Assembly (NCBI GenBank): GCA_017542305.1
Contig: JAFXXK010000025.1
Span: 1 to 64,000 of the forward strand
Direction of reading: 5' to 3'
Length of the DNA stretch: 64,000 nt
Source: a bacterium
Lineage (GTDB): Bacteria; Cyanobacteriota; Vampirovibrionia; Gastranaerophilales; Gastranaerophilaceae
Of the stretch, positions 45,996 through 50,639 are shown one piece after another. Positions within the stretch are counted from its first letter, which is position 1. Every line of letters begins with the position of its first letter. Both the position numbers and the translations under genes were made by a program. The notes beneath the pieces are model-generated. The model had not been told where the DNA came from, ran no database searches, and saw nothing but the letters and a program-made list of their open reading frames with translations.

Positions 45996-47015
45996 TTATT
46001 TAACTTTCCCTCTCAACTGACCGCAGGCTGCATCAATATCCGCCCCTCTTTCAAGTCTGACTGTAACTTTTTTGCCCGAATGTTCAAGAAGATATTTAAA
46101 CTTCATAACAGCATTGTTTGACGGTTTTTGGTAATCATTTTTTTCTGTCGGGTTGTATGGGATTAAGTTTATATTGCATTTAATGTCGTGCAGATAGTAA
46201 GCAAGTTCTTTTGCACTTTCAACCGTATCTGTTAAATCTTTTATCAAAAGATATTCAATGGTAATACGTCGCCCTGTTTTGTCAACGTAGTTTTTCATAG
46301 CTTTGTGAAGCTCATCCATAGGGTATTTGTTTTCAATTTGCATTAATTTTTTACGGATTTCGTGATTAGGTGCGTGAAGCGAAATAGCCAGAGTTGACTG
46401 CATATCAAGCTCGGCAAGTTTATTTATCTGCGGAACAATTCCGCTTGTGGAAACGGTTAAACGTCTTGCGCCGATTTGAAAATCTTCATTAAAAATTTCC
46501 ATAGCCTTTAGTACGTTATCAAGATTAAGTAATGGTTCGCCCTGTCCCATAAACACGACATTAGTAACTTTCAGTCCTGTATCACGCTGTATTGTCAGAA
46601 CTTGTTCAATAATTTCTTTATAAGTCAGATTTCTGATAAACCCTCTTTTGCCTGTAGCGCAAAAAGAACAGTTAACGGCACATCCTACTTGCGAGCTTAC
46701 GCAGGCAGTAAGGTTGGCACGATTATCAAAACGCATCAGAACGGTTTCAACACATTCTCCGTCTGGATATTCAAGCAAGTATTTCAAAGTCCCGTCAGAG
46801 CTGGTTTGTTTAACCTTGATTTTCACATCGCTGACTTTTGCAATTTGTTTTAATTCTTCTCTGAATTTTACGGACAAATCTGTCATTTCATCTATTGAGG
46901 AAACCGATTTAAGATAAATCCAGTTGTGAATTTGTCTTGCACGAAACTTAGATGCTTTGAGTTCATCCGTAATTTGTTCTATTTCAGCCTGATTTAATCC
47001 TGATAAAGTTTTCAT
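45996..47015 (-). CDS. rlmN: Dual-specificity RNA methyltransferase RlmN
   Basis: The ATG at 47015 gives a 339-residue radical SAM enzyme that methylates A2503 of 23S rRNA (and A37 of some tRNAs). The cluster motif C112-x3-C116-x2-C119 (CAVNCSFC), MGQGEPLLN and the C-terminal GRRITIEYLLI/GCDINLIPYNP-type blocks are present; the catalytic Cys is in DIDAACGQLRG at the C-terminus. No strong ribosome-binding site precedes the ATG, and a TTG 24 bases further upstream is in frame. It is divergent from the ssrA promoter. Confidence 0.94.
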   Translation of the reverse strand: MKTLSGLNQAEIEQITDELKASKFRARQIHNWIYLKSVSSIDEMTDLSVKFREELKQIAKVSDVKIKVKQTSSDGTLKYLLEYPDGECVETVLMRFDNRANLTACVSSQVGCAVNCSFCATGKRGFIRNLTYKEIIEQVLTIQRDTGLKVTNVVFMGQGEPLLNLDNVLKAMEIFNEDFQIGARRLTVSTSGIVPQINKLAELDMQSTLAISLHAPNHEIRKKLMQIENKYPMDELHKAMKNYVDKTGRRITIEYLLIKDLTDTVESAKELAYYLHDIKCNINLIPYNPTEKNDYQKPSNNAVMKFKYLLEHSGKKVTVRLERGADIDAACGQLRGKVK

Positions 47016-47048
47016 AAATAAATTATGCCACAAAAACAAAATAGGGTG

Positions 47049-47076
47049 TTGAAAATTGTAAAAATTGAGTTATAAT
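47049..47076 (+). promoter_or_regulatory. Promoter of the tmRNA transcript
   Basis: TTGAAA (47049-47054), a 16-base spacer and TATAAT (47071-47076). The predicted start near 47083 lies about 180 bases upstream of the mature tmRNA 5' end. No good promoter is seen closer to the tmRNA, so the long leader is probably transcribed. Confidence 0.65.
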
Positions 47077-47108
47077 GTAATATACGAACATTGAAGCTAG
47101 AAATATAT

Positions 47109-47136
47109 AAAAATCTTCATATATGGGGATGTTTTG
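47109..47136 (+). repeat. Duplicated copy of the tmRNA 5' boundary
   Basis: ATCTTCATATATGGGGATG and the following TTTTG at 47113-47136 nearly match ATTTTCATATATGGGGATG and TTTTG at 47254-47277, which spans the mature tmRNA 5' end (47266). The two copies are 141 bp apart. Confidence 0.75.
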
Positions 47137-47251
47137 AAAAGCGTAAGCCGATGTGAGTGCCGGAGTCGGTTCGCGAGAGCGAAACGAGCAGGGCACGAAC
47201 AAAACGATAGCGACGTAGAAATCTATGATTTCACAGGAGCTAACATCCCCA
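47125..47251 (+). other. Structured leader element mimicking the tmRNA acceptor end
   Basis: The segment starts GGGGATGTT (47125-47133) and ends AACATCCCC then A (47242-47251), a perfect 9-bp closing stem. Inside are TTCGC-GAGA-GCGAA (GNRA-loop hairpin, 47170-47183) enclosed by GTGCC/GGCAC (47157-47161 with 47192-47196), and GAAATC-TAT-GATTTC (47218-47232). It carries no reading frame of note and sits in the tmRNA leader. It could be a functional RNA or an inserted element. Confidence 0.6.
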
Positions 47252-47265
47252 AGATTTTCATATAT

Positions 47266-47663
47266 GGGGATGTTTTGGATTAGACAGGATGATCTGATTA
47301 ATGCAGGTTGCGAGTTCGGGAGCTGTTCCCGGTTACCAACGAGCAAACAAATTAAGTGCTAATAACACTATTGATGCCACAGATGCATTCGCAAGAAGAT
47401 ATGCATTAGCTGCCTAATTGCAGTTGGCCACTCATACCGCCCAGCTTGCCGGTTGTATGGGTAAATTATGCAAGACGCAGTACGGAGATGGCGATAACCG
47501 TATCAAGATAATCGTCAGAGGTTTAGAGTTTCCTTTAAATAAAACCTAGGGCTGAATTATAGGGTAGTGATTTCTCCTGATTCAGTTGAGCGAATGTAAA
47601 TCTACACTCGTAGAGATTTGTTTTAATCCATTTTGGACAGGGGTTCGACTCCCCTCATCTCCA
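47266..47663 (+). ncRNA. ssrA: Transfer-messenger RNA (tmRNA)
   Basis: This 398-nt tmRNA rescues stalled ribosomes. The 5' end GGGGATG pairs with 3' CATCTCC (one G-T pair), and discriminator A is base 47663; CCA is not encoded. The T-arm GGTTCGACTCC (47642-47652) is intact. The tag frame runs 47358-47417, resume codon GCT, encoding ANNTIDATDAFARRYALAA and then TAA, with the expected ALAA end. The ANN start is typical of cyanobacterial relatives. The 19-residue tag is on the long side. The 3' end is repeated downstream several times. Confidence 0.95.
47648..47663 (+). repeat. tmRNA 3' end, attachment-site-like core (copy 1)
   Basis: The 16-base core ACTCCCCTCATCTCCA forms the tmRNA 3' end here. 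It recurs at 47823-47838, 47879-47894 and 50593-50608. tmRNA 3' ends are standard integration targets for tyrosine-integrase islands. Confidence 0.8.
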
Positions 47664-47706
47664 TTTTAATTTTTTGAAATAAAAATAGAGAGGCGAACCC
47701 ACCAAG

Positions 47707-47840
47707 CAAAGCTTGGTCAGTGGTTCGAGCGTGAGCGAGCTGAGGGCGAAGGCTTGATTACGAAATAATTGAAAATTATGAAGTAATCAACCGCAGACCC
47801 GTTAATAGCGAGCGAACAAGACACTCCCCTCATCTCCATT
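47707..47840 (+). repeat. 134-bp perfect direct repeat, left copy
   Basis: Identical by eye over 134 bases to 50477-50610, ending with the tmRNA 3'-end core plus TT. It contains a self-complementary region (TTGATTAC ... GTAATCAA around ATAATT-GAA-AATTAT). The two copies bracket the 2.6-kb mini-island. Confidence 0.9.
47823..47838 (+). repeat. tmRNA 3'-end core (copy 2)
   Basis: ACTCCCCTCATCTCCA at the end of the left 134-bp repeat. The 35 bases after it (TTTTAATTTTTTGAAATAAA and on to GGCGAAC) also follow the true tmRNA end at 47664, so the flank was duplicated too. Confidence 0.85.
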
Positions 47841-47878
47841 TTAATTTTTTGAAATAAAAATAGAGAGGCGAACAAGAC

Positions 47879-47894
47879 ACTCCCCTCATCTCCA
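47879..47894 (+). repeat. tmRNA 3'-end core (copy 3)
   Basis: The core with preceding GACA, only 40 bases after copy 2. It is immediately followed by the 63-bp hairpin repeat that recurs at 50820. Confidence 0.85.
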
Positions 47895-47957
47895 ATAACA
47901 ACTGCGGCTTTATGCCGCTAAAAATTTTGATGGGTTGAATATTTCTATTCAACCCAT
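47895..47957 (-). terminator. Repeated terminator module, left copy
   Basis: Contains GCGGC-TTTAT-GCCGC and the stem ATGGGTTGAATA/TATTCAACCCAT. Read on the minus strand the long stem is followed by a T-run, so it terminates the gene ending at 47968. A near copy lies at 50820-50882. Confidence 0.75.
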
Positions 47958-49481: not shown

Positions 49482-50420
49482 ATGCTTATGAAAAAATTTT
49501 TGCTTATTTTATTTGCTTTTTTAATATTTATTGGGCTTGATATGTTTGTTATAGAACCCAATATTCTGATTGTTAAAAACCAAAAATTATATGTCCCGAA
49601 TTGGAATAAAAATATTGATGGATTTAAAGTTGCTGTTGTAGCAGATATTCACCTCGGAACAAAATTTGTAGATATACAAAAACTTGAAAAAATTGCAAAT
49701 AAAGTTAATAAGGCGCAGCCGGATTTGGTTGTATTGGCAGGTGATTTAGATGCAAAATCTATAACATACAAAGGTTATAAAAAAGAAGATGTTGCAAAGA
49801 CATTAAAAATATTCAATGGAAAGTTCGGAACTGTAGCGATAATGGGAAATCATGACTATGACCCGCCAAACGTAATTCCGCAAATATATAAAATGGCAGA
49901 AATTCCATTACTTGAACATGAAGATTTATTTATATATCCCCAAAAAACTCCTGTAAGAATTGTAGGGTTTAAAGACTTGTGGCACTACAAAAGTATTCCT
50001 GCAAATGTAATTGGTACAAAATATAAAAACACTCCTACGATCGTACTTGCACACAATCCGGATTCATTCGCAGATATGCCGAAATTTGTGTCTTTGACAT
50101 TAAGCGGACATACTCATGGCGGAGAAACTGTATTTCCGATAATCGGTTCATTTGATGTTCCGTCTGAATATGGTCAAAGATACCGCAAAGGTTATATCAT
50201 AGAAAATAATAAACATTTATATGTGAGCGGCGGGGTTGCAACAACGAGTAGAATGAGATTTTTAAATCCTCCTGAAATAGCGATACTTGAACTGTATTCA
50301 CAAGACCAAAATAAAAAAATTTGTGATACAAAACCTTTAAAAGGCATTGATAAAAATTATGCCCCTATTTTGGTTCCCAAACTAAGAAATTTTATAAATA
50401 AATTAAAGACAGATAATTAA
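49482..50420 (+). CDS. Membrane-anchored calcineurin-like metallophosphoesterase
   Basis: This 312-residue protein has an N-terminal membrane helix (about residues 5-23) and a metallophosphoesterase domain with the complete metal set: VVADIHLG (DxH), VVLAGDLD (GDxx), MGNHD (GNH[DE]), an isolated His (LAHNP) and SGHTHGGE (GHxH). It resembles the YaeI/YkuE subfamily of phospholipid/periplasmic phosphodiesterases; substrate unknown. Two start codons are 6 bases apart (49482, 49488). It lies inside the 134-bp repeat bracket and so may be cargo of the island. Confidence 0.9.
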   Translation: MLMKKFLLILFAFLIFIGLDMFVIEPNILIVKNQKLYVPNWNKNIDGFKVAVVADIHLGTKFVDIQKLEKIANKVNKAQPDLVVLAGDLDAKSITYKGYKKEDVAKTLKIFNGKFGTVAIMGNHDYDPPNVIPQIYKMAEIPLLEHEDLFIYPQKTPVRIVGFKDLWHYKSIPANVIGTKYKNTPTIVLAHNPDSFADMPKFVSLTLSGHTHGGETVFPIIGSFDVPSEYGQRYRKGYIIENNKHLYVSGGVATTSRMRFLNPPEIAILELYSQDQNKKICDTKPLKGIDKNYAPILVPKLRNFINKLKTDN

Positions 50421-50476: not shown

Positions 50477-50610
50477 CAAAGCTTGGTCAGTGGTTCGAGC
50501 GTGAGCGAGCTGAGGGCGAAGGCTTGATTACGAAATAATTGAAAATTATGAAGTAATCAACCGCAGACCCGTTAATAGCGAGCGAACAAGACACTCCCCT
50601 CATCTCCATT
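50477..50610 (+). repeat. 134-bp perfect direct repeat, right copy
   Basis: Partner of 47707-47840, 2770 bp away, and identical by eye. It ends with the tmRNA 3'-end core (50593-50608). It defines the right boundary of the mini-island. Confidence 0.9.
50593..50608 (+). repeat. tmRNA 3'-end core (copy 4)
   Basis: The 16-base core ACTCCCCTCATCTCCA at the end of the right 134-bp repeat, 2.9 kb from the true tmRNA 3' end. Confidence 0.85.
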
Positions 50611-50639
50611 ATTTATAATTTTATAGAAGAATAGATGGA

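Follow-up and report, generated by a model that had tools for sequence, protein, structure and literature searches.

A structured leader before a tmRNA gene

The tmRNA gene (ssrA) of a bacterium of the Gastranaerophilaceae, analysed here within a window of 64 kb, is preceded by a leader that holds both a copy of the gene's own 5′ end and the complement of that end, which raises the question of whether this leader controls tmRNA maturation by exchanging two exclusive pairings or is a small element inserted at the gene. The first was the main idea of a sequence-only reading of the window, and the second its alternative. The features that bear on the question are the following, with the basis of each in brackets.

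47049–47076, + strand: sigma-70-type promoter, TTGAAA-16-TATAAT (sequence match, distance comparison)
47110–47136, + strand: duplication copy 1, the decoy, with 15 nt of flank and tmRNA nt 1–12 (direct-repeat comparison)
47141–47240, + strand: structured repeat core, family A, GCGTAAGCCG...CACAGGAGC (similarity searches, covariation)
47242–47250, + strand: AACATCCCC, complementary to both the decoy and the real 5′ end (sequence, fold)
47251–47277, + strand: duplication copy 2, flank and real tmRNA nt 1–12 (direct-repeat comparison)
47266–47663, + strand: tmRNA (ssrA), tag ANNTIDATDAFARRYALAA (ARAGORN, Rfam)
47664–47838, + strand: 3′ unit 1, made up of flank, a tRNA-tail-family element and a copy of the tmRNA 3′ end (47823–47838)
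47839–47894, + strand: 3′ unit 2, collapsed, ending with the third copy of the tmRNA 3′ end (47879–47894)
50477–50635, + strand: further copy of the tail-family element, 95% identical (3′ of the ORF 49482–50420)

The promoter, the decoy, the 9-nt complement and the real 5′ end all lie where the sequence-only reading had placed them, and the GAGA-loop hairpin (47170–47183) and 6-bp stem (47218–47232) that it described are both present. The nonamer GGGGATGTT at 47125–47133 is repeated at the tmRNA 5′ end (47266–47274), and the only further site in the window is its complement at 47242–47250, which makes three sites on both strands of the 64 kb where 0.32 are expected and where 1 of 100 shuffles reaches three. 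TTGAAA-16-TATAAT is, as had been claimed, the single promoter-like site in 46950–47300, a match that alone proves little because shuffles of this stretch average 1.4 such sites. The limits of the tmRNA are 47266–47663 according to ARAGORN and 47266–47666 according to Rfam, and a reverse-strand ORF of 107 aa spans the leader. It had escaped the first reading that the tmRNA 3′ end is also duplicated downstream, at 47823–47838 and 47879–47894, with a small element preceding the first of these copies.

The decoy as a probable former gene start

Another feature that had been missed is that the decoy sits inside a 27-bp direct repeat (47110–47136 and 47251–47277, 93% identical). Counted from the end of the −10 box, the decoy follows after 48 nt and the real 5′ end after 189 nt. 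Among the 55 tmRNA loci that lack a 5′ copy and have a promoter match, the median distance from the −10 box to the gene is 31 nt (quartiles 28–46), and it exceeds 100 nt in only five; where an upstream copy and a promoter match occur together, the distance from the −10 box to the copy is 23–55 nt in 8 of 11 loci, the exceptions being L018 and L157 (8 nt each) and L198 (224 nt). The direct repeat and a promoter in register with the decoy together indicate that the decoy is the old gene start, behind which 141 bp were added, so that copy 1 is probably where the tmRNA gene once began. The exact repeats measured at five tmRNA loci range from 13 to 69 bp. This variation, and a duplication at the window's tmRNA that exceeds the length of usual target-site duplications, count against an insertion. 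The longest of these repeats, of 69 bp, belongs to the tmRNA leader of L198 (genome G135), which contains two copies of the family-B insert and three of the gene end.

tmRNA loci of related bacteria

A survey of 149 distinct tmRNA loci from 148 genomes and 49 genera revealed an upstream copy of the 5′-end region in 14 loci of eight genera, at distances of 136–253 nt. This set counts L064 through its flank and first nucleotide only, and drops L172, which passed the threshold by a match of its A/T-rich flank alone. By eye, the inserts fall into three families: A with eight loci including the window, B with three loci plus L174 (a weaker copy, of score 11, assigned on its insert), and C with three. 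No comparison between families gives a match below E 0.15; at the DNA level the window's insert is weakly linked to the other family-A tmRNA inserts (best E 0.003), and L022 weakly to family C (E 0.045).

Ten same-genus tmRNA loci including the window could be compared, the genomes G003, G005 and G009 having no full tmRNA match. The window's insert is present in none of the nine others, an absence that the sequence-only reading had itself counted against a control of maturation. One of them (L064, genome G011) has a different insert at the same place, and the remaining eight show no 5′-end copy, the leaders of L060 and L062 being longer than those of the others. Copy-bearing and copy-free loci coexist in genera g6, g10, g13, g40, g54 and g56, and since sister species without copies occur in several genera, repeated independent arrivals would be the simplest account, judged from this distribution. 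In genus g5, L168 retains family-A inserts with a decayed decoy, and L163 keeps, by eye, only an insert remnant and no decoy, which speaks against selection for the decoy. Two genomes, G111 and G137, have two tmRNA matches each (E ≤ 1e-30), representing either contamination or a second gene.

A dispersed, structured repeat

The 100-nt core of the leader is found elsewhere. It occupies two places in its own genome at E < 1e-20, the second (contig C17, 24770–24874, 83% identical) directly after a stop codon, and it has matches (E ≤ 1e-3) in 38 of the 146 genomes of the family, its own included, with listed copies of 75–132 nt. A 31-base core motif, 30 bases of which are specified, matches 49 stretches in the genome collection: 37 are labelled Candidatus Gastranaerophilales bacterium, and the other 12 Galligastranaerophilus, Scatousia, Cyanobacteria SIG27 (2), uncultured or unnamed (7) and Fusobacterium sp. 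CAG:439 (1). The motif also occurs in two viral contigs. One of these (L293, 4033–4119, minus strand) carries the repeat between two ORFs, and the terminal CAGGAGC, part of a stem, could double as the ribosome-binding site of the next ORF.

The three helices P1–P3 of the core are conserved through base changes: over 11 copies, 98.9% of 187 cells are paired and 8 of the 17 pairs have changed on both sides, a result reached by 0 of 500 shuffles and compared with 27–49% for slid versions of the structure, over which it is favoured by having been derived from the folds of the tested copies. These 11 copies were taken from the 16 listed for one arm type (L084, L100, L108, L109 and L292 were left out), and the test was confined to it because the full alignment misaligned arms of unequal length; for the same reason, RNAalifold on the MAFFT alignment of the copies gave no structure. 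A search of 47040–47920 against Rfam raised only the tmRNA to its gathering score, the other matches, up to E 5, staying far below their cut-offs, and the weak matches that touch the leader extend into the tmRNA. Two weak permuted-tmRNA matches were rejected, as they overlap the tmRNA itself.

By eye, core copies lie after the stop codons of protein genes, which we take from the ends of their proteins to be ribosomal-protein genes, and after the end of a 23S rRNA. Around 56 distinct copies, with ORFs called crudely at ≥ 80 aa, the upstream neighbour is a co-directional ORF in 30, an opposite-strand ORF in 12 and no ORF in 14. In 16 of the 30, the co-directional ORF stops 52–81 nt before the motif, which places its stop where the element begins, and none of the 12 opposite-strand ORFs is within 100 nt of it. 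In 14 of the 49 motif stretches the motif follows the 3′ end of a tmRNA (11) or a tRNA (3), in nine of them at 116–117 nt. The rplC–rplD spacer (named by eye; loci L354–L364, 7 of 11 readable) has family A next to the rplC stop in two genomes (G004 and G007) and another repeat in its place in G000 and G006; in G008, G009 and G011 none of this kind is seen.

Copies of tRNA gene ends

Duplicated gene ends also occur beside tRNA genes. Of the 24 tRNAs in the window's genome, 13 are accompanied within 600 nt by a duplicate of their 3′ end and 3 by one of their 5′ end, and in G012, of the same genus, the figures are 11 and 3 of 30, while the control genome G056, from another order, has none of either kind beside 30 tRNAs. 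In nearby control stretches, the three genomes score 2, 3 and 1 matches for 3′ ends and 0, 1 and 0 for 5′ ends. Elsewhere in the order, G044 has 3′ copies at 3 of 31 tRNAs, as against 2 in nearby control stretches, and G107 at 0 of 31, with 5′ copies in neither, so the copying of tRNA ends is not universal within the order.

With nucleotides counted from the gene ends in the usual tRNA numbering, 20 of 24 tRNA 3′ copies, judged by their opening letters, start at nt 56–58, in the T loop (the exceptions are L269, L286, L302 and L323), and the 5′ copies end at nt 12 in four of six cases and at nt 17 and 19 in the others; the tmRNA decoy likewise ends at nt 12. The six tRNA 5′ copies (L280, L284, L285, L294, L316 and L318) are followed, after nt 12–19, by another element (ACTCTGCCGA-hairpin-GAGAGG), which has a hairpin with a T-rich tail behind it in several loci and stands twice in tandem at tRNA-Leu(tag). 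A separate observation concerns a tRNA that ARAGORN reports with the anticodon TTA and that would decode the stop codon UAA, at L270 in the window's own genome (C26:72811–72883) and at one locus of G012; the 3′ end of the L270 tRNA is also duplicated.

Probable insertion of the element at the tmRNA gene

The direct repeat, the register of the promoter, the insert-free relatives, the dispersed family, the conserved helices and the recurrence at tmRNA and tRNA ends make it quite probable, as far as sequence comparison can tell, that the leader arose when a non-autonomous structured repeat entered the 5′ end of the tmRNA behind nt 12. The small inserted element that had been offered as a mere alternative is thus the reading that the 27-bp repeat, the dispersed core and the insert-free relatives support, and the new control of tmRNA maturation is not supported, given a promoter register that fits the decoy and a core scattered beside other genes. 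In short, the leader appears to belong to a family of repeats at gene ends that is as yet undescribed, and not to be a tmRNA switch.

Such an insertion would have left the gene end on both sides of the element, the decoy keeping the promoter and copy 2 serving as the working tmRNA start. Transcription would begin a few bases after 47076, and the element would fold first, closing on the decoy by means of AACATCCCC, which forms its closing stem in the predicted fold. The tmRNA would then fold behind it and, as is general in tmRNA processing, RNase P would cut at 47266 and the leader would be discarded. The element is probably tolerated by the cell rather than used.

Gene-matched arms in some copies

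L030, L177/L120 and L125, from three genera, each close the decoy with a local complement that is near perfect (AACATCCCC, GACGTCCC and AAACGTCCC). Over 14 leaders (L174 included; L120, a near-duplicate of L177, and the 10-nt cases L157 and L018 left out), the summed score of the matched pairing between decoy and complement is reached in 151 of 20,000 permutations, a moderate advantage; taken by family, 52 of 5,040 permutations are as low in A, 2 of 24 in B and 4 of 6 in C. The matched partner is the best of the 14 in L030, L177, L125 and L064, and 10th or worse in L198, L190, L208 and L174. This test led to the rejection of a general rule by which each decoy would have its closing complement. 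In units at tRNA 3′ ends, the arm in front of the element shows a tendency to complement the tRNA end that its own unit has copied, a fit reached in 104 of 20,000 permutations when units were taken unselected (21 of the 24 3′ cases plus the tmRNA, leaving out L269, L286 and L323) and in 1 of 20,000 for 14 motif-chosen units, the latter result being partly selected, since a GAGAA motif next to the arm guided the choice of these units by eye. A fit between arm and neighbouring gene is therefore supported, though not in every copy.

The likeliest way for the element to move and to gain a gene-matched arm would be either copying at the DNA level, templated by the target strand, or insertion into a duplicated gene end that later shrank. 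Against the insertion reading also stand the few or absent tRNA copies in G044 and G107, the weak similarity of the window's insert to the other family-A inserts, a fit of decoy and complement that is not general, and the fact that draft metagenome-assembled genomes can misassemble repeats. As a broader and tentative proposal, which we hold to be possible but rather doubtful, mobile structured elements of the Gastranaerophilales would target RNA-gene ends at preferred breaks (after nt 12 at 5′ ends; at nt 56–58, in the T loop, at 3′ ends), rebuild the end and acquire a complementary arm by templated copying. On the other hand, selection for a function could account for the closing stem and for its fit to the gene beside it.

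One such function would be that of a tRNA-like processing module, in which the mimic of an acceptor stem is cut by tRNA-processing enzymes and yields a stable small RNA or protects a transcript. The decoy stem does repeat the acceptor strand of the tmRNA together with the following A (AACATCCCCA, against the real CTCATCTCCA), and the covarying helices and the arms of tRNA-side units matched to the tRNA end are in line with this idea, which may hold together with the insertion reading. We nevertheless regard it as unlikely, given that decoys decay, that the tRNA-side units may, by eye, sit behind the terminator of the tRNA, and that the copies after protein genes have no acceptor mimic visible by eye.

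The regulatory switch appears less probable still. It supposes that the tmRNA is free while the complement pairs with the decoy, and that the acceptor stem and RNase P are blocked when the complement pairs with the real 5′ end instead. The leader is predicted to fold well: 47124–47251 is predicted at −50 kcal/mol, against −30.2 (sd 3.2) for 200 dinucleotide shuffles, none of which folds as well (z −6.2). The two exclusive folds also exist in the model, as had been proposed, with −162.8 kcal/mol for the closed decoy and −165.5 for the sequestered 5′ end. In the latter, the complement binds the real 5′ end and the decoy binds the tmRNA 3′ end, and the 2.7 kcal/mol by which this rival fold is predicted to be lower falls within the error of such models, so that misfolding into it is possible. 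A gene-matched closing stem, moreover, recurs in genera g54 and g6. Against the switch stand the nine same-genus loci that lack the insert, the decay or loss of the decoy in g5, and, for families B and C, a matched pairing that in most cases does not surpass the pairing with other leaders; by eye, a similar unit lies at tRNA 3′ ends, such as that of tRNA-Lys, behind an apparent terminator hairpin. Furthermore, the leader, being transcribed first, should fold with the decoy before the real end exists. A tmRNA switch is, as modelled, possible on paper but unsupported, though the leader may have some effect on tmRNA processing.

That the repeats are att sites of a vanished integrase-borne island is hardly credible: direct repeats of RNA-gene ends with a break in the T loop do mark such islands, as at Dehalococcoides ssrA (PMC3146451), but a single integrase could hardly serve the more than ten tRNAs involved in one genome, which all differ in their repeat and have their copies 118–359 nt apart, the window's case affects a 5′ end, the core also follows protein genes, and the units at the window's tmRNA (141, 175 and 56 bp) are too short to hold an integrase gene.

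Relation to known elements

By its size, spread, folding and modular build, the leader element can be filed among the small mobile repeats. It has the dispersed copies, the short length and the target duplication with insert-free relatives of MITE-like repeats such as BOX, RUP, SPRITE, ERIC, Correia and RPE, which are dispersed, strongly folded and of ~100–200 nt (PMC2229807, PMC3049150); BOX has a modular build, and SPRITE often lies next to the ends of coding sequences, as here. Unlike in those repeats, the flanking repeat is a piece of an RNA-gene end, of 13–69 bp where measured, the inverted arm varies with the target, and the elements often lie beside tRNA and tmRNA genes.

The islands at Dehalococcoides ssrA (PMC3146451) leave 20-bp direct repeats of the ssrA 3′ end downstream, in tandem and with a junction in the T loop, and carry a six-gene integration module with a serine recombinase. 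The repeated gene end and the T-loop junction are common to both systems, whereas the units described here measure a few hundred bp or less and affect 5′ ends too. Integration-derived tRNA fragments (PMC9897764) are likewise partial tRNA copies beside or near an intact gene; those found here differ in that each adjoins a small structured element, in many cases one with a matched arm, at about half of the tRNAs examined in the window's genome. Among the papers listed in searches of the open-access PMC library, judged by titles and the openings of abstracts, none reports such elements.

What appeared to be a tmRNA switch thus becomes one instance of a wider pattern, in which small folded repeats border tRNA, tmRNA and protein genes of a gut lineage that has received little study. 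If insertion itself yields the gene-matched arms, the mechanism would be new, and if selection yields them, the elements would act in RNA processing. The templated-arm proposal, if true, would imply an unknown mode of insertion that gives many copies custom mimics of acceptor or T stems, possibly recognised by tRNA-processing enzymes. Annotators of these genomes should not take every fragment of a tRNA or tmRNA for a scar left by a phage or an island.
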